Assembly (NCBI GenBank): GCA_020091685.1
Contig: CM034605.1
Coordinates: 28,458,281 to 28,522,280, forward strand
Direction of reading: 5' to 3'
Source of the DNA: Lutjanus erythropterus
Lineage: Eukaryota > Chordata > Actinopteri > Lutjaniformes > Lutjanidae
Length of the DNA stretch: 64,000 nucleotides
Part shown: positions 10,302 through 58,467 of the stretch, one piece after another
Layout of the letters: the number at the start of each line of letters is the position of its first letter
Position numbering within the stretch: the stretch's first letter is position 1
Notes under the pieces: generated by a model
Seen by the model: only the letters and a program-made list of their open reading frames with translations
Told to the model about the DNA's origin: nothing
The model's database searches: none
Made by a program: the position numbers and the translations under genes

Positions 10302-11028
10302 CAGTAGTTATGAGGCGTGCCATTTCAATGAGTCACAAGTGGAAAGTTGTTGTGATGTCTATGCTACTCTCACTGGTAAACTGTTATGAAAATGAAAAAT
10401 GCACAAAAGGAATTCAAATGTGAAAGTATTTGTTTATTTAGATTATCATTACATTTCCCATTTGGTATTTTATTCAACATGAACACTTCTCCATGACTGA
10501 GTAACATTTATTGTGTTTAGATAATTTCTTCTTACTAAAGATTAATCATTAATCGTGTGAATCATTGACTTTAACTGTGTAAATAAAATATGTTTGGTGA
10601 ATTCATATCAGCTGAAAGTTTGTGTGGGTGGAAAACTCTCGTGGTAAATTTCTCCCTCAGAGAACAAAAGCCATTAGGAATTTCTGAGGGATATTCCACC
10701 CTGACTTCTCCACATGGAGAACACGGGAATGTCCATCATCCAACCGTTGGTTCAGGAGACTGGATATTCCCTTAAATCCCATCAAATCAGTGCTGTGAAT
10801 TTCAAATATCTAGAATGAATCTCATTGGTTGAATGGTGGGCGGGCCAAAATACAACCGCCAGCTGCTGCTGCTGCTGCCGTCAGATGTGGTTGCAGGGCT
10901 GTTTGTTTCAGTTGCTTTGAACAGAGTGCAGATTGCAGTCGAGTCTCATGAGAGCTTTTGTCTGACAGTGAAAACTGCAAATGCACTCAGGAGCTGAGTC
11001 ATGAAGAGAAAATAAGAGAGGGACCTGG

Positions 11029-11091
11029 CTGCAGGGAAGATGGCGGACAAGGGCGCCGCCATAGCTCTACTCCATACCGGAAGTCGGTCTT
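11029..11091 (+). promoter_or_regulatory. Left terminal inverted repeat with YY1- and ETS-like motifs
   Basis: The repeat contains AAGATGGCGG (a YY1-type core-promoter motif), its approximate inverse GCCGCCAT, and ACCGGAAGT (an ETS-type site). Such motifs are typical of TATA-less vertebrate promoters and the YY1-type site faces into the element. Promoter function is inferred. Confidence 0.45.
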
Positions 11092-11479
11092 CCTCGTGTA
11101 TCTTGTCGCTTATAAGGCGGTCCGTCATCACGGAACGTCCAGACAGTTGATACGAAGAGATAGAAAGTACAGCGTGTTATCTAAGATACAATTCTATGCT
11201 ATCTACAAATGTAATGTATCAAAGAATTAGAGTGACATGAGTTGGGAAGGCTGTTTCTCCGCTCGACTCGATGGTCCGGGCTAACGTTAGCTTAGCTAAA
11301 GAAAGTGTGCAACATCGCCACCTGCGTTATGCGCTGAAGGACAGGACATTATAAGCAAAAAGAAGCACACGTGGTGTTAACCTTTATGATCTGTAAAGTT
11401 TTCTAGATATCAATGTTGTTTAACATCTCCTTTTTCAGATGCACCCCTCTATTTAACCTAAGAATCCAGTCTGGAGCGC

Positions 11480-12261
11480 ACGGTCTTGTCGTCCTCTGAA
11501 TTTGGGTGTCCTCTCTGTCCCAAATTCATTACTAAAACTGACAGTGTGATCCAGAGGAACCTTGAAAACCACTCAGCAAATGCAGTGCATTTCCAGGGTA
11601 TGATGATAAGTATCTGTCTGAGATCATATAATTTTTATTTGTTGAATGATAATGTGTTTTTGGATGTATAAGCTTGCCATAATTTAATCAGTGTTATATT
11701 GAGTTGCACTGCTTTATAGTGCAGTTTAACACACGGTTGTCTTTAGACTCCTTGATGCTAGATTATCTGGATTACAATTTTCATGACATATTTGCCAGAT
11801 AGGCATGGATCTGATTCTACAAATTGACTTGCCCAGGCAACCACGGCAGAGACGGCCTCTGATAACGAACGACTGTGCATGGCTGACCTAAAGTTGTTCT
11901 GTGTTTTCCAGACATCACAAAACACAGGACAGAGGTGGGTTTAAAAGTTAATTTAAGAACTGAACACTTCAAGGCCTATTCACTGTTTTTAAGAAAGTGA
12001 CTATCTTTTGTATTTGTGAAAATGCTTTCACATCAATGTACAAGGATAACAATTGGATAGTGTATGTGTTTAATTTCAAACATAAAATGTTAACGTCTTT
12101 TATGCGGTTAGACTGTTATACCCAGATGCTGCGTCTCTGGAATGGGTGCAGTGCCAAATGTGCAAGGTCTGGCTGCACAAAGATTGTGCCGGAAAGTGCC
12201 ATAAACATCTCAATGATGACTCATTCAACTGTGGATGCACAGATATGAATGACAGACCAAG
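11480..12261 (+). pseudogene. Exon-like remnants of a zinc-finger/PHD protein inside the 3.26-kb element
   Basis: Two coding-looking blocks lie here. The first (about 11480-11597) reads a C2H2-like pattern: CPLCPKF, then NLENHSANAVHF, ending at a GT site. The second (12126-12261) follows a good AG and reads SLEWVQCQMCKVWLHKDC, then FNCGC, the C-terminal half of a PHD-type finger, ending CCAAG/GTACTA. A small possible exon around 11910-11933 could join them. A stop codon precedes the first block with no ATG, so the reading frame looks incomplete. The parent protein is unknown to me; a transposon-encoded or captured host gene are both possible. Confidence 0.45.
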
Positions 12262-14209
12262 GTACTACTACTTAAACATCTGTATGTAGTGTCACACAAA
12301 AATAAAGAGGAACACTGACATACTAAGCCTGCACTTTTCAAAGAAAGGCTTAATGAACCTTTATTTAAACCCTATGAGAAAATGCCAGCTTGGGGAGAAT
12401 TATTAACCCAAAATATTAGCTGTTTTCACAGGCAGTGTTAAAAAAAGTCTGCTCTCTAAAACCATGTCCTGTAAAGACAACATAATGTTCCCAAAAGAAT
12501 TTAAAGTTTTGTAAAGAAGATAACAGTTTTGACCCACAAGCATTACAATCATATTTTTATCACAAAATGTCAGGTGAATTTCAGGTGGAGGTAACTTCCT
12601 GTCTATAATCTGGAGATGCTTACTGATAAATGATTTTGCAGTAGCTGCTGGCAGTCCTCTTTTTTTTTTCATCTTTGCAGGATAATGGATGCTGTTGAGC
12701 AAGGAGAGGGAGATCAAGGTAACTTTCAAATAGACTGTGTTGTTGGTAATTACATTCTCTATCAGTGATTACATGTTCACCCTTTACCCTTTGGTTTCAG
12801 AGCTTACACGATGATCTGATGAATGGAACGATCCGTTCCAATAGGATGTTCCTATGGCAGAACCCATCCACCTCAATTAATCTGAAACAGCACTTAAAAC
12901 TGAGGACCTGAACTTTAGTGACCAGCGGTAAATCAAAATGTCATCAGTCGTTTGTGTGTTTCTCATAGATGTAACATATAAAAGATGAATTTATTGATTT
13001 GTACTTTTCTTTTCAATAGATCTTTGAGCTACTGAGGGTCATTGAGGAGGTCACAGGTGTAGGAGCGCAAAATAAAGAGGGGAGATAAGACTCCTGGATT
13101 TTGTCTTGATGTTATGCTCCCAGAGTAAGATAGTCAATCTAGCTTGCTTGGGAAATGAAAGGAAATTGTGGTTATTGAGTATTTTATTCCTTTGGAAAAC
13201 ATAAAAACAAAGCGGTGCACTCTCTAGAGCACCACAAGATATGACTGGATCATTTAAGTGTTTTTCAGAAGCTGATCAAAATCTTGAAGAAGAAGCGCTG
13301 ACCCGACTGCAGGCAGAAATATGATGGCCAGTGGGAGCTTGATTTAACTTTTGTTTTATTGTTCATTGTTTTGTTTTGTTTTTTCATTGTTTCATGTTCT
13401 GTTTCATTTGCTCATCTCCATTGTTGTTCATACTTTTCCCCTGTTTTTGATTTTATTTCTTTGTATGTTTGTTTTTCTATTTTGGAAGATTTGGAGATGG
13501 AACGCAATAAAACTTTTATCACAAAAAAGAGAAGTCCAAGTCAAACTCTTAATGTTGTCAGCATGATAATGTAATGTGTTTAACTGTATTCCAGAAATAA
13601 AATAGAATTAATAGAATACTGACAATCTGACAATAGGAAAATCTAATTATTGCATTCATTGAATAGTTAAACCTGGAAATGAACACATCTCCAGACCCAG
13701 GAACTCTCTGTTCTGTTGCAGTGGGTGAGGAAACGACCAGCAGGATTGAAAGGAATCTTCTGGTGGGGAACGCTGGGTCATATACAGGAAAGGTAGGGAG
13801 AGCATGTCAGCTTCCTGCAAACAAGATCCTGCATAATATCTGGGCAATAGTCTTTACACTGTATTACCACTAATGATTTACAGTGCTGGCCTCCTTTTTA
13901 ACACTCAACATAAATAACAATTACATTAACCATGCTAATGTGAAGGTGATTATTGTTCAGTTCTAGTGTGACACACACACATTGTATTCACGTTGTTTAA
14001 TAATGTCTTAATATTAATTGTAAATCAATGAAACATTAACATGACTTAGTAATTATTTTAGGCTTCTACTTGCTAAGATCTCAGTTTTACATACTGCATA
14101 AAGACTGTAATATTTCCACCACTGACGCTTGATTTTTATGTCGAATTGTGTGAACAATCCTTGTCTTAATTTATATACGTTAAATAAAGTTGTTGTTTTT
14201 TTTTTTAAA

Positions 14210-14285
14210 AAGACCTACTTCCGGTTTGGACTTCCAGTATGGAGTAGAGCTATGGCGGCGCCCTTGTCCGCCATCTTCCCTGCAG
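14210..14285 (-). repeat. Right terminal inverted repeat of the 3.26-kb element
   Basis: This is the inverted partner of 11029-11091. Read on the minus strand it has the same YY1-like stretch and two GGAAGT cores; the left copy lacks about 14 bases including one of these. Confidence 0.75.
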
Positions 14286-14520
14286 ACGGGTACTCTTGGG
14301 GGGAAAATAACAGTCAAGCAAGAGAGAAAGCACTTAAATGAAAAGGATGGAAAATTAAGATAAATATATCAATGCAGGTATTAAAATATTTATATTAAAA
14401 TACTGCAGATAAATACAGGGTAAAATTTGACAGTAAAACAACTAATATGGCTGACATGGCTACCTGGGCATATGGTGCATTTCCACTGTGTTGTACTGGT
14501 TTGACTCTGTTCTACTTGTT

Positions 14521-23913: not shown

Positions 23914-25186
23914 AGTGACGGTGTGAATGTCTCCTCTACCTATCAGGTGCGCTGTAGGCTCCTGTGGCCGACCCAGGGTTGATGTAGAACTTGTTCTCGT
24001 TCTCAAATGCCTCGAACTTGTGCGTGTGCCCCGAGATGAGGATGTCGACATCCAGCTGCCTCTGGAGCAGCGCCAGACTGGCCATGTCGCCCCAGGGGAT
24101 CACCTGGTGGCCGTGGATGAGACCGATCTTAAACTGGCCCACTGTGACCACCTTCTGCTCCGGGTAGTTCAGGTTCTGAGAGAAGAGGAACGTGTGACAA
24201 AGAGAAACAAGTACTGTTATGCTCTGTTGCTTTAATTTAAATTCACTGTTTGCTGTGTTGAATTAAAAAAATCAATCCTGCTGTTACCTGACTTTCCCTG
24301 AAAATGTCTGTACTTGCATTTAAAAATAAAAGAATATTCTTTAAATCACACGAAAGGCAATGAAAATGCGATCATTTTATCTATTTCAGCCATATGTGGT
24401 TATACTGACCGCACGGAAAATGTTGCAGTTATGTTTTCACTCTCTCTTCACTCTTTCTCTTTATTAGGTATTTATCATTAGAGTTCTAGTAATTGTAAAC
24501 TTCTGGCACTTCTAGTGTTTAGCCAGTGAAATCCGCTCTGTATGGCAGTTTTTTTTAATGTGGCTGTTTCTAAAAATTGTGAACTAGGCAGGTAAAACTC
24601 AATTTGCGAGAAGAGAGCAATTACAATTCATTACGCAGAAATCGGTCTTTAGTGCCAGCAGGAGACTCATTCCCTTCTGTCTTGCAATTAAACATTCAGC
24701 CACATAAATTCTGCCTTTTTTACCCCCATCTGTGTCTTCAGTTCAAAACCTCTCATTTAAAATTCTTTCAAATAAAAATTCTGCTGGATTTGAAGAAAAA
24801 TGTCATGCCCCCAACACATTATTATGAAAGTACTTAACAATTTTGCACCCACACTGACAGCTAAATTAATTTGACTGAATTAATTAATATCTTGCCTTTG
24901 GTCTCTCTTTTTCTCACTTGTGTTGTGGTGTGTAATGAATAAAGCTCTAGGTTATTTTACTTTTGTCTGTAAAACAGACACAGACCTCATCGAAGTCTCC
25001 CCGCACTATGTGGACGTCTCCAGCGAGAGTCTTCAGGTAGTCATAGCTCTCCTTGGTGCAGAGGTTTCCTGTGCAGAGGATGTGCTGGATCTTCCCCGGG
25101 ACCAAGAGCTTCTTGAACTTGGCTGGCAGGGTGTTGCACCGGTGGGGGATGTGCAGGTCACCTAACACCAGGACCAACTGATAGCA

Positions 25187-25221
<35 letters not shown>

Positions 25222-28200
25222 AACAGACAAATTAGTCAACCGTGTCTGTGTGATGTAGCAGCTGAACACTGAAAAAGGAAGTGGGCCGAGGATAGAGCCC
25301 TGCGGGATGCCGCAGGTCAGGATGAACACAGACTTCACCAGATCCATTATACTCCTCTGTTAGTTATTATTAAAGGGATAGTTTTGTTTTTTTGAGGTAC
25401 TAGGTCAGTGTATTAACTACAGTAGATTCCTCAGTTTCGAGGAGCAACGGGAGCACCACTGCAGAAAACAAAGCAATGTACTGCTGTGGACCGGGTCAGC
25501 AGTGAAGCGTATTTTAGCAACACCCCGTTATCAGTTTAAGTATCTTTATTACATTTAGAGTATTTTCACCACTTTACCTTGCTGTTAAACAACCTCTTCT
25601 GGCAAGAAACTGCTCTTATATGAGCCTTTAATCACCATGAGACTCCTTTGGCAAAAACAGTCATTTTAATTTGCAGAAAACAGGAGTTGCTGGTCTACTT
25701 TCTGCATCGATCAGTTAGTTTGTTTGTTGTATTGTGTGTGGTGGATCTAAACTAACCCTTTAAAACACTGAAGTTACACACTAACATAAACAAACTAACT
25801 GATCGAGGCAGCAGTGGAACAGCAACTCCCGTGTTCTGCGAGATAAAATTACTGCTTTTGCCAAAGGAATCTGGCAGTTTTGGAGAGAGCGATATTTAGT
25901 TTGTATAACAGCAGTTTCCTGTTGAAAATGACCGCCTGATGGCAAGTTAAAGCAGTGAAAATATTATACATATAGTATATACTTTAACTGATATTGAGTT
26001 TTTTTAGGGGGGCTTTTTTGGTGGATAAAATATATTTTGCTGCTGACGCTGTCCACAGCAGGACATTGCTTCACTTCCATGCTGGTATTCCTCTCCCCCA
26101 AACTGGGGGCCTGATGACCTCCATCTACTGTAGGTAATACACTGACTACTTTATATAACCCCACTTCAAATAGTCAAAACTATCCCCTTAAGTTGTGTTG
26201 TATCTTGTTTAAAACCAATCAAAAACTGTCATGATTTATGTTATTGCACCCAAACAACCTACTACAGATTAATTCAGAATTGTGGATAAAAAGGCTTAAT
26301 TCATAAAGCTCAAACTTGTAAATAAGCAATGTGAGTGAGTAACAAGCTGAGTTTATTAAGTGTCTGAGTTCAAACTGAGTTGTGAATTTTATTCCTTGCA
26401 TAATATTAAAAACAGCCCATTGTAGAAAAATATGGATTGAATCAGCACAGCTGGATTTCAGACACTCAATAACAGATAAAAGAACATAGGAGCAAAATAA
26501 TTATGTTTTAACACAATACAAGTCAATAAGAATAAAACATCAACAAACCTGAACATTTATACTACATGTGAAAGACATAAGTAACCTTTTAACTCCACTA
26601 GCCGGCAGAGAGATGCTGTAAATATGATTTTTTTTTTGTAGCATGTTACTGCTTTGGTGAGAATCAAACCTACATTTCAGGGTTCTATCCTGCACCATGT
26701 TTCACCAGGAACCGTGACAATAAAAGTTAAACATGAAATTTTTGTCACTTCATACACATGCATTTCAAAAACACTAGTAAGTTTTTTGAATTAGTCACTA
26801 AATTCCTGAAGCTACTGCATCAAACGCTCATTCACTCTAAACATAAAACTGTAAACTTGGCCCAGATCGGATTTCCTCACCAAAGAAACGCGCCCAATCA
26901 GGACAGCTTATTGTTTCTGAAGTTGAAAGCCTTCATTCACAATGACTTCCTGTTTTGAAACAGATGAGTCACTTGTCAGGATTCCCAAATAAGGGATCAC
27001 TTTAATTTGTGAAATGTGACCTTAAAGCCTGTTTGAGTCATCTTAGATTTGGTTCTTGAAATCTAATATGGGACCTTTAGGTTACCTAGTCTGACTTATT
27101 TCTAGATTATTTTGGGCAGATAAGTAAAAAGCAATTTCTTGTTTAGAACAACAGCCGAGAGCAGGTGTAACTAAAGGATCATAGCCTGCCGGACACCAGA
27201 TCCCTGCACTGCAGTTGCTGAATTAGCAGCAGCTAGTTTCTCTGAAACGCAGAGACAGCAAACCTCCACACAACTGTGCAATCCCAATCCCGTGTTAGTG
27301 CGCCAGGCAGAAGAATGAGCAGAAAACAGGGACCCAACACAAAGCGAGGGCACTTACCCGGTGACCAGCCTGGTTGATTGGAGAGTGGGTGAGATAGAGA
27401 GAAAGGCAGGATGTGCATGGAGAGAACGACACGAGGCATAATTAAAGACAAAAAGAAAGAGTTGGGACAAGAGGGGAAAACTGAAATTAGAAATTAAAAA
27501 GTGAATGGATTAAGGAGACAGATATTAATCATTCAAAAACAAATAAGAAAAGTTAAACGACAATGTGGTTGAATCACTTGTTAATGGTTGATGGTTAGTG
27601 ATAATGATAAGTCAGTTTTCGCCTGACTGAGTTGAGTATAGCAAATGCAAAATTATGTGGTGAAGCAAATCAAAGTGCTGACTGGAATTTGGTTTTACTT
27701 TAGTTATTAAGAACTATAGGGCTGCACGATATTAGGAGTGTCACAATTTCAATATTAAATCGATTGAAATGAGCTTTCAGTTTCAAAAATCGAAATCAAA
27801 GGCAGACTCAGTGATTCTGTTTTTTCTTTTGCAGTGTCCAGCACACGTCCAAAGAAACACCTCAAAGATGACACAGCCCACCTTAGCACCTATTAAATCA
27901 CACTTTGTACTCTATAGACCCCCTTTTAAAGATAAATTTGAAAATGTAAATCACAGTTGTCATGGCATAAAATCAATGATCTGTTGATATTTACAACTCC
28001 AGACTTAATAGTCTAAAAATAGCGTAGCCATCAATGCTAAAATGTTCCAATCAAAAAAAATTAATTAAATTGTGACTTTAAAATCAAAAGTCAAATGGAA
28101 TCATAGATTTGGAGAATGGTGACACCCACACACAGTATTGTAAAAGAATAAATATATTTCAATTATTTAGACAGACACTGTAGTTGTGGTATATTTCACA

Positions 28201-54298: not shown

Positions 54299-54737
54299 GT
54301 AATTTACCTCCCCTTCTCTCTCTTCTGTTGTACTCTCACGCTGAGGCAGAGTTCGTTTACAAATTCATGAGGCACAACAGATTGAGTATTAATTGTGTAA
54401 ATGGGAAGCAGGGCATGCTGGGACTGAACGTGTGTTCTCCATATAGAGTGAAGAGCTTTTATTATTTCAGTGTGATGCTTTTGCAGTGGAGGAGATGATT
54501 CAGCTCAACATCAGCTGTTCAAACTTTGTTTTTTAACATGAAGATATTGGATTAGAAAGATTGTTGTTAAAGGGATAGTTGGATTTTTTTCAAGTGGGAT
54601 TGTATGAGGTACTGATCAGTGTATTACCTACAGTAGATGGCGATTGTCAGGTTTCCAGTATGGAGAAGCAGCGGGAGTACTGATGCAGGAAGCTAATCGG
54701 TGTACTGCAGGTGGACGGAGTCAGCAGCAAAACGTGT

Positions 54738-55935
54738 TTTAGACACTTAGAAATTAAAAATTGGCAACTACTTTGATAATTGATTTACAGTTTCAGTCAT
54801 TTCTCAAGCGAAAAAATATCAAATGTTTCAGCTTCTTCAATGTGAGGATTTGCTGATTTTCTTTGTTGTTCATGACAGTAAATGAAGAGTCTGTGGGTTT
54901 TGGACTGTTGGTTGGACAGAAGAAGCAATTTGAAGACGTCACTTTGAGTTCAGGGAAATTGTGATAAGCATTTTTCACAATTGTTTGACATTTTTTTGTC
55001 TAAAGAATAGACTTGCACCGATTAATCGGCAATGCTCGGAATCGGGCCGGTTTTCACGTGACCGGCCCTGACCGGTGACCGGCCGGTCAGCATCACAAAT
55101 CCGGTTCTGCGCCCGTCATTGTCACACACATGTTCTGCACGATGGTCACGTCATGCGCGCAGCAGACGAACTGACCGTGACATCAACACAGCGCTGATAA
55201 CAGCTACACACACTCTGACAAGATGTGTGGATGGATGAAGCTGGTGTCAGCGACAGATTCCAAGAACAGGATAAAGAGAAGACAGACAGTCTACAATGAG
55301 ACAGAGCAGCTGACAATGTCGCAAAACAGCCGTAAACTTTGTAGCTCTTCAGGCTAATGCTAGCAAGCTAGCAGCAGACTGCTGTTTACAGAGGGACAGT
55401 TAAAATCTCACCTCCTGTTCTGGCTGAAGAATAAACAACCTGTGTTGATGCGTCTCCTCAAACATTTTCTCATCCAGACTCGTTTAATTTCTGCATCTGT
55501 TTTTCTCACGGCAAAGTTTTACTTCAAACTGTTGCACCGCGTTAGTCTCCGGTTTGTTTACATCCGCTTCCACAAAAGATCACGTGAAATCGCGTCCCGC
55601 GAGATCACGTTCACCCAATTCATAATCTTAATATAAAATTATAAGAAGGCCTGGTTGTAATCTGGATGATTTTGGAGAAAGTATTAAATGAATATTTAAT
55701 AGTCAGTGTCTTATTATGAACATATTTACAAGAAAAGTTGCAAAAATGTTTGTGAATGCTGTCAATTACAGTTCTTAGAAAGACTGAAAATCGGAACCGG
55801 CCAAAATCGGAATCGGTAGGTCAGACCCCTCAAAAATCGGAAATCAGAATCGGCTAAGAAAGTTGAAATCGGTGCAAGTCTACTAAAGAATCTATTAATG
55901 AAAATAATCGTTTGAAATGCCGGAAATGAACTAAT
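54738..55935 (-). repeat. GGGCTGC-family repeat (reverse orientation), split by a hAT-type insertion
   Basis: Read on the minus strand it starts AACGATTATTTTCATTAAT near 55905 and continues after the insert with the family words AACAATCCAAAACCC-like and CTGAAACTGT. The two halves join at the duplicated octamer CTAAAGAA. Confidence 0.6.
55000..55890. mobile_element. Non-autonomous hAT-type element, 875 bp, with perfect 8-bp target duplication
   Basis: The element spans 55008-55882. Its ends are TAGACTTGCACCGATT and the exact inverse of its first 15 or so bases, AATCGGTGCAAGTCTA. The octamer CTAAAGAA flanks it at 55000-55007 and 55883-55890. An 8-bp duplication plus TAG...CTA ends point to the hAT superfamily. 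Subterminal CGGAATCGG and CCGGCC words are repeated. No transposase frame is present, so it moves only in trans. The clean ends suggest a fairly recent insertion. Confidence 0.88.
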
Positions 55936-58467
55936 GAGATGCAGCAGCGAAACTACATTAAGCTATGTATTTATATACAGTAGTGGTCTGTAATGGACAA
56001 TAGTGTATTTGAATTATACACAGTACAGTAGTTTAATTTGTGTCGTAATTTGACAGTCAGTAAATAGCAAAACTGTCAGTTCAGTTACTTTTATATTCAT
56101 GTAATAAATATACAAAAGTCAATTAGATGGCAATCTGCATGAGGTTTCCAATGTGTTTAGGATGTTTTCCTCTGCTTTACTTTGCTGCCAGATAACCTTT
56201 TCTGATGGGAAACCGAAGTTAAGTCGCTCTCTTCCTGCCACCAAAGTCCTCTGACAAAAACAGTAATTTTACCTGACAGAGCACAGTTGTTACTGGTCCA
56301 CTGCTGCCTCGATCGGTTAATTAGTTTGTGTTCTTGCATGACTTTGGTGCTTTAAAAAGATAGTTTGGATTCACCAAAGTCACACAGTAACACAAACAAA
56401 CTAAAGATTGAGGCAGCAGTAGATGAGCAGCTCCACTATTCTGTGAGGTAAAATCACTGTTTTTGCCAGAGGATTTTGGTGGCGGAAAGAGAGCGATATT
56501 TACGGCAAGGTAAAGGGGTGAAAATATTTTAAATATAGCGCACACTTAAACTGATATTGACTGATAGTTGTTAAGTGGGTAAAATACATTTTGCTGCTGA
56601 CACTGTCCACAGCAGCACATTGCTTAGCTAACTACACCGGTACTCCTGGTACTCCACTTCTCCAAACTGGAGATGTGCCGACCACCATCTACTTTAGGTA
56701 ATACACTGACTGTGGTTAAGTATCTCATATAGCCCCACTTCAAAAAACCTGAACTATCCCTTTTAACTGGAACATGAGGCCTAAAAAGAAGATTGGCTTG
56801 AATCATTTCTGCTCGGCCTATTCAGGGAAAAAAAGGAGTAAATTCAAGTATTTTGGCTGCTTTTAAAAGGCTTTTAAGATTTAGATTTGTCCTACTTGAA
56901 CACCTTTTGCTGAAAACTGTGCAGTAACGGCATTTCTCTCAACATTTATTAGCCTCCAAGAGGAACTAAATGTGATTTTTCTTCTACCTTTTTCCAGTTC
57001 ATGCTGCTTGGTTGTCATGCAACTGGGAGTGACAGTTCTGTTTTCCTTGTTAAATCAACCAAATCAGGAAGCGGGTTTGCTTTTAAAATGCAAATTTCAG
57101 AGGCTGAGAGTGAATGCTCCTTTTGCTACACAGTGAATAGCAGTTTCACTTTACAGTTTGAAGTCAGTGAGTTGAGAATGAGCTGCCCATAACCCTGTGT
57201 GTCTGTCCCTTCTCTTTTTTGTGTACGCTCATTAGCAAGGGAGATGTGTGTGTGCGTGGTTGTTTTGATCTGTGCCGCTGTACATTTTGGCTCTGTCTCT
57301 CGGCCTGGAAGTGGTTTCGGGGACGTCAGAGTGATATCGACTTGGCTGCTGCAGCTCCGGAGGCTTTTTTTTTTGCTCATCAGACAGAAGAGGGGACGGA
57401 TCAGTTCGTGGCTGTGGCGGCGGCAGCGGCGGCCACTGTAGCTCCTGGTGGTGGTGGTGGCGATGATGATGATGTGTTGACGCTCGGCTCGGCTCGGCTC
57501 CTCTCTCCCTCGTCCCGCTCAGCGATCGGCTAGTGGTTTTCCATCAGTTTTTCCAAAGCTCCATTGATTCTGGCCTTTGTATCTCAGAGGCCCGGGCCCT
57601 TTGGCGTTGGCTGTGACACTACGCTGACAGAAAAACACTGAGTCATGACAGCGCCGTTCACGGAAAGACAAAGCGTGAGGCTTTTGTCGGCAATCCTTGT
57701 TGTTTTTAGGTTACTGCTTTGTCACAGTCAAAGAAAAAAAAACTCTCTTTGAGGAATTTGTCAGGTTGTTTTTCCTGCCGGTCAACAGGGATTTAGATTT
57801 CTTTTAATGTTTATTTTAAGGACTTGAAGCACACTTGAAAAAAGAACCTACATCTCAGTACTTTTTTTTTTTTTTTTTTAGTACTTTTTCATGATTGGCA
57901 CATTAAATGTTCCCACTCCTGTCTTGTGTTCCTATGTATAGGCCAACTGTTCTTTTTTCTTTGGTGGCTGATAAGTTGGACATTTAAAGTTGAAGGAAAT
58001 CCTGACATGGATTAGATTTGTGACTGTGTAGCTCAGTAATTGAGTCTGCCACTGATCTTGATGGGTTCATATCTATGAGGGTTACTCATGTTAAAGGAAT
58101 AGTTTGACTTTTGGCTTTCTAATGTTATTTTCTTTTCTTTCCAAAGTCATGCTGTTGTTACACAAAATAGAATTACATGAAATGTATGACTGGTGACTTT
58201 CGGTCAAATGGTTGTTTATAGTGATAGAAAAATCCTCAATCAGAGAATGGTCCATATTCAACCAGTTCACCTGGATAATAATGTCAGATCCTCATAAGAC
58301 GCTAGCTGCTCTGCTAACACCAGCAGTGCAGTAGTGTCCTTGCCTTGCAAATGTCAGAACAAACTTTTAGATCAGGCCTTGTTGATCAAATGAAATGAGT
58401 GAAGATTCAGCAACTAGATTGCTTATTTCTCATAAACAGATTTTGGTTGACTTATGCCTCCTGTAAT

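Follow-up and report, generated by a model that had tools for sequence, protein, structure and literature searches.

A probable non-autonomous transposon family with promoter-like terminal inverted repeats and remnants of a spliced gene in Lutjanus erythropterus

In a 64-kb stretch of Lutjanus erythropterus DNA (hereafter the window, i.e., all 64,000 nucleotides analysed), two identical 49-bp sequences face each other as an inverted pair at positions 11029-11077 and 14237-14285, which raises the questions of what kind of unit they delimit and why its ends look like promoters. The initial annotation had given the coordinates of this pair exactly. TG microsatellites excepted, no other exact inverted pair in the window is as long; the next have 25 and 22 bp. 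The similarity of the two arms reaches 63 nt at 95% identity, and AAGATGGCGG is found without mismatch in the two arms only. Elsewhere in the window, a further repeat family that is self-inverted (i.e., foldback-like) has several diverged copies (25370-26191, 54567-54749 and 56224-56763), an exon of the VPS29 gene lies at 23939-24262 on the reverse strand, and the ORFs near 35 and 52 kb presumably belong to eif5 and mark3.

Copies of the element were fetched from the 937.6-Mb host genome and are referred to by L-numbers (e.g., L009 and L010). Alignment of the ends from these fetched copies revealed that conservation passes about 13 bp beyond the 49-bp block and then ceases. The element is therefore wider than the bounds of 11029 and 14285 that had been proposed: its true span is 11016-14302, the last four bases of which are an extra GGGG, and it is flanked by an 8-bp target-site duplication (TSD), GAAAATAA, whose left (11008-11015) and right (14303-14310) copies match at 8 of 8 positions. 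The outer termini are GAGAGGGACCTGG on the left (11016-11028, forward strand) and ACGGGTACTCTTG on the right (14286-14298, reverse strand; reverse complement CAAGAGTACCCGT), the latter followed by the four extra G at 14299-14302. With minor variants, the left terminus is common to the left ends of other copies; the ends aligned from the fetched copies read GAGAGGGACCTGG on the left and, as reverse complement, CAAGAGTACCCGY on the right, the termini being GAGAGG..CTCTTG, and the flanks outside differ among copies. CTGCAG, TGCA and GC had each been considered as the TSD and were dropped when other copies turned out to share the outer 13 bp. As shown by arm comparison and end alignment, the right inner terminal inverted repeat (TIR; 14210-14285, reverse strand) is of a long form that contains two ETS-like words. 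The left inner TIR (11029-11091, forward strand), of which 49 bp are identical to the right arm, is 13 bp shorter and lacks the second ETS-like word; this 13-bp difference varies in other copies, too. The number of extra G between right terminus and flank is 4 in the window copy, 1 in L013 and a run of about 10 in L011, as if these bases were added at insertion. The right subterminal block, including the inner TIR, is tandemly repeated in L010, L013, L017, L022 and L023, and the window copy has one unit of it.

The ends are dispersed throughout the host genome. At least 91 ends were identified with a 35-base TIR pattern at up to 3 mismatches, and the reversed-pattern control returned 0. Forty-six of the 91 form 23 inward-facing pairs with spans of 479-9371 bp, and 23 of 26 neighbouring ends less than 12 kb apart face inward; the other 45, unpaired at up to 3 mismatches, lack a partner through decay, truncation or loss. 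Given this pairing and an interior that is also repeated in other copies, the arrangement that the initial annotation had named as contrary to its reading, lone short repeats and a unique interior, is not what is found. Twelve of the 23 pairs are shorter than 1.5 kb (short copies, 0.5-1.5 kb), and where a pair bears the gene and has no large nested insert, its length is about 2.8-3.7 kb. Beside two of the copies, 3.5 kb of sequence is duplicated at 95% identity (L014 5038-8565 and L024 1-3510). No close relative of the element was found in viral contigs or in bacterial and archaeal contigs.

Among the nine copies for which both ends were fetched, seven have an 8-bp TSD that matches at 8 of 8 positions, either at zero offset (L010, L017, L019 and L023) or once 1-4 extra bases on the right are skipped (L013, L012 and the window copy). 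The TSD of L009 is imperfect (6 of 8), and none was seen at L011. The TSD sequences are varied 8-mers. In a control with mismatched flanks, 72 pairings across different copies gave at most 6 of 8 matches (mean 1.8); the offset was zero in all of these pairings, which makes the control weaker for the three copies with an offset. The joined flanks of two of the nine copies (L023 and L013) are spanned by paralogous sequence at 71-75% identity. These alignments resemble paralogous empty sites and lend weak support to insertion, that of L023 being weak because its two matching loci duplicate each other. Inverted ends on dispersed copies together with a fixed 8-bp TSD are the characters of a TIR (class II) DNA transposon, and the earlier proposal that the unit is mobile agrees with the dispersal, the inward pairing and the TSDs, as well as with the two weak empty sites. 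A local inverted duplication or a chance inverted repeat that never moved, for which nothing speaks beyond the absence of a transposase, is refuted by the 91 ends genome-wide against 0 in the control, the inward pairing and the TSDs, and we regard it as vanishingly improbable.

The near-identity of the two arms had been taken as a sign of recent activity or gene conversion. When the window copy and twenty others were aligned to the window copy, average divergence was about 3-4% over most of the length: 3.4% in exons A-H (described below), 3.9% in introns, 4.9% in the left TIR and 2.3% in the right TIR. The divergence of 21.5% in the rest of exon 1 is taken to be misalignment around indels. Because copies differ by about 3-4%, near-identical arms in the window copy are, by rough estimate, about what age alone would give, so neither recent activity nor gene conversion is needed. 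The similar values for exons and introns (3.4 vs. 3.9%) give no indication that coding sequence was under constraint while the family last spread.

The presence of YY1-type and ETS-type words in the ends, as described in the initial annotation, was confirmed for both arms. For the YY1 motif CGCCATNTT, the window has three occurrences, of which the arms account for two, against an expected 0.8 (a count of 3 was reached in 3 of 100 shuffles); for CCGGAAGT it has four, including one per arm, against an expected 0.5 (a count of 4 was reached in 0 of 100 shuffles). ATGGCGG is present in both orientations within each TIR. An ATG in a YY1/TISU-like context lies 24 nt inside the end and is followed by the ETS words; in the window copy it marks the start of exon 1, and its reading frame (11040-11147, forward strand; MADKGAAIALLHTG...) runs for 36 codons and then meets a stop. 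AAGATG is found 24 nt from the terminus in all 16 left ends examined for exon 1, and the YY1/ETS words keep the same 24-nt spacing in these 16 and in all 14 right ends examined. With regard to two further left ends, L012 keeps the ATG and L011 reads AAGATT; over the whole family, 87 of the 91 ends retain the ATG. A splice donor, GAAAG|GTAA, follows the exon 1 ATG in 13 of the 16 left ends, and its pattern is missing in the window copy. The frame from the ATG to the donor is open in 3 of the 13 donor-bearing ends. Counted over ends with up to 3 mismatches, CpG positions show 9.5 changes each vs. about 1.6 at other, non-CpG positions outside the YY1 core (i.e., about 6-fold), which suggests that the ends may have been methylated by the host in the germline.

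The proposal that the terminal repeat is also the promoter of the element can be considered in this light. The ATG in 16 of 16 left ends, the donor in 13 of 16 and the YY1/ETS words are consistent with it; the lost ATG of L011 and the frame that is open to the donor in only 3 of 13 ends count against it. We infer a promoter function from motifs and exon layout, and consider it plausible, with ProtoRAG as a precedent. Alternatively, the YY1/TISU-like and ETS-like words may be binding sites at which a transposase or host factors act in transposition, so that their promoter-like look would be incidental. This alternative, which we hold to be a real possibility though short of probable, fits the identical 24-nt spacing at both ends (16 of 16 left and 14 of 14 right), the two orientations of ATGGCGG in each TIR, as binding repeats might have, and the short copies L011 and L012, which keep the same ends without the gene exons, though the left ATG of L011 is lost. 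In ProtoRAG, moreover, the YY1 motif is described as being important for recombination, too (PMC7481187). A pure binding site does not, however, predict that on the left the ATG opens an exon with a recurrent donor (13 of 16). The two roles are compatible and not exclusive.

The long copies share a multi-exon gene, broken in those examined, with a C2H2-like finger, half a PHD finger and an unclassified C-terminal region. All its parts in the window are on the forward strand. Exon A (11439-11597) encodes the C2H2-like finger (FGCPLC...H...H) with a stop upstream of it in the window copy, and is followed by a 23-nt microexon, exon B (11912-11934), the pattern of which is found in 16 of 18 copies. 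Exon C (12112-12261), which recurs in other copies, matches profiles of the second half of a PHD finger; the first half is absent. Exon D (12681-12718) is shortened to 38 nt in the window copy vs. 61 nt in L016, L020 and L021. Exon E (12801-12927, right bound approximate; SLHDDLMNG...) has small deletions in the window copy, exon G (13020-13125, right bound approximate; IFELLRVIEEVTGVG...) has a broken frame there, and exon H (13269-13341, bounds approximate) contains the end of the ancestral reading frame. An AATAAA lies downstream of exon H at 13506-13511, in addition to that at 14183-14188, near the right end, which had been noticed initially along with the C2H2-like block, the half PHD finger and the splice signals. 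These features are not peculiar to the window copy: canonical splice signals recur across copies for exons A, B, C, D, E, G and H, followed by a stop and AATAAA. Profile searches of the exons, which the initial annotation had recommended, gave matches to PHD_2 for exon C (E 0.0065) and to zf-C2H2_4 for exon A (E 0.05), both below the Pfam cut-offs, and exon C matched the KDM5B PHD with an E of 0.0025; no transposase model was matched by the peptides searched.

The exons join only in part. C-D-E are in phase in three of the seven copies that have D and E (L016, L020 and L021), whose G is 2 nt short, and E-G are open (79 aa) in three of the seven copies that have both (L017, L024 and L027), which belong to another subfamily; exon D is out of phase in L017 and L027, where its pattern was found. 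No in-frame join by the splice sites read was found between exon 1 and A for the C2H2 frame or between B and C for the PHD frame. As these two junctions lack matching finger frames, a complete gene is only inferred, which is most naturally explained by a loss of exons that preceded the last spread. The shared layout supports the view that the finger remnants probably derive from a single spliced gene of the ancestor. At three places only, one more exon was found between A and B (3 matches from 4 candidates in the search of the own genome). As a speculation, the missing exons may have encoded a Ulp1 protease.

It could be argued that the exons are a fragment of a host gene captured, as in Pack-type elements, by an unrelated non-autonomous transposon. 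PHD and C2H2 fingers are host-like, the structure is multi-exonic, and the peptides tested contain no recognised transposase domain. Exon 1, however, has its start in the TIR, and the matches listed from the own genome, mostly at about 80-100% identity, included no separate parent gene that is intact (exon searches yielding 44 matches from 55 candidates, 66 from 59 and 3 from 4, a part of which was checked for TIRs). We consider capture unlikely.

Where the transposase came from was addressed by domain searches and by inspection of other copies. One Pfam set consisted of 6 of the 17 L013 frames and four exon peptides, all of them from deleted copies, and in these peptides no transposase domain was matched, including those of hAT transposases (BED and hATC). 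By exon spacing, no copy has extra room, except three with one more exon and those with nested inserts. L009 (8.1 kb) was considered as an autonomous copy and rejected: its extra 5 kb, missing at that site in the other copies compared, is probably a nested insertion, and its longest stop-free frame is 152 aa. Frames in L018, L020, L021, L024, L027, L028 and L054 look by eye like reverse transcriptases from nested LINEs, and C21 (L051), a candidate intronless copy, proved to be another deleted one. The single KDZ match found in the genome is a KDZ-transposase-like gene fragment (L049, L052 and L053 on contig C168); a link to it was rejected, as this locus was found without TIR or exon similarity to the family. 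No autonomous partner was thus found among the copies examined, and assembly gaps and unfetched copies leave room for one. That the C2H2/PHD protein itself was the transposase of an unrecognised superfamily is, in our judgement, quite unlikely. The 8-bp TSDs show that a transposase existed, and this is the only gene seen in the family, beginning in the TIR and ending with a stop and AATAAA; no catalytic domain was recognised in it, however, and an ordinary DDE domain could have been encoded in the missing exons and deleted with them.

Taken together, we consider it likely that the window copy is a decayed, non-autonomous TIR transposon mobilised by a transposase supplied in trans, with a TIR that served as core promoter and an ancestral C2H2/PHD gene that was deleted stepwise. 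The trans-supplied transposase would have bound the ends and inserted copies with an 8-bp stagger. The TIR would have doubled as a core promoter through its YY1/TISU-like start and ETS sites. Transcription would have begun no more than about 24 nt from the end, with exon 1 of the gene carried by the element placed in the left TIR, and an inward transcript would also be expected from the nearly identical right TIR. The ancestral protein may have combined the C2H2-like finger, the PHD-like finger and the unclassified C-terminal region, and successive internal deletions would have led to the present family. Most likely, the family is an ordinary one of modest copy number, non-autonomous and unusual in how closely its ends resemble promoters. 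A bolder description, which we judge unlikely, is that the family is the remnant of an unrecognised vertebrate superfamily with 8-bp TSDs and a C2H2/PHD protein, whose TIR copies a housekeeping-type core promoter including the start codon, so that short-leader transcripts would run inward from each end and host YY1 would both govern the gene and mark the ends. If the ends work as TISU/YY1-ETS promoters, this would be a family with the start codon itself in the terminal repeat, and each of the at least 91 ends would be a portable host-style promoter that could plausibly supply nearby genes with new first exons. To our knowledge, ProtoRAG is so far the only DNA transposon with host YY1 at work in its terminal repeats, and the element would then be the second.

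With respect to known systems, literature searches for the TIR sequence found nothing, and those on transposons with PHD, C2H2, YY1, Zisupton or Ulp1 gave no description of the family among the papers listed. RAG/Transib elements have 5-bp TSDs and a CAC terminal heptamer, and Kolobok/piggyBac TSDs are TTAA; the varied 8-mers of the element match neither, and both memberships were rejected. IS3EU, considered on account of a 6-bp TSD and the CTGCAG palindrome, has TA..TA termini and usually 6-bp TSDs and was ruled out by the GAGAGG..CTCTTG termini and the 8-bp TSD; Dada, which lacks TIRs and has 6-7-bp TSDs in small-RNA genes, was ruled out by the long TIRs and the 8-bp TSD. The TSD length thus counts against these four groups, and is compatible with hAT, P, Merlin, MuDR or KDZ/Zisupton, for which TSDs are given as 8 bp in Zisupton (PMC12730594), about 8 bp in P and hAT (PMC3706591), and 8 bp in Merlin and 4-10 bp in MuDR (PMC10045372). 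The element shares the 8-bp TSD with these groups (MuDR within its range), but none of their transposase domains was found in the element peptides tested.

Like Pack-type and MITE-like elements, the family has TIRs, short copies and no transposase found; unlike them, its gene starts inside the TIR, and an intact host parent was not seen in the host genome. The ends also resemble the TISU promoters of genes with short 5' UTRs. The TISU element has the 12-base consensus SAASATGGCGGC. It is described as flanked by AAGAUGG and located no more than 30 nt from the start (PMC2518114), and the element has AAGATGG around the ATG, of YY1 type and at most 30 nt from the presumed start. The differences are that the word here is part of a transposon terminus and is present on either side of the element, and that the start is presumed from geometry. 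Another close parallel is ProtoRAG, a RAG-like transposon of lancelets. The TIRs of ProtoRAG carry the motif CGCCATNTT, bind YY1 and help to drive the element's own genes; YY1 mainly represses their transcription, and deletion of the motif lowers it as well (PMC7481187). The element differs from ProtoRAG in its 8-bp TSD and in having no CAC heptamer and, in the peptides tested, no RAG-like domain; what the two have in common is the same YY1 motif in both TIRs.
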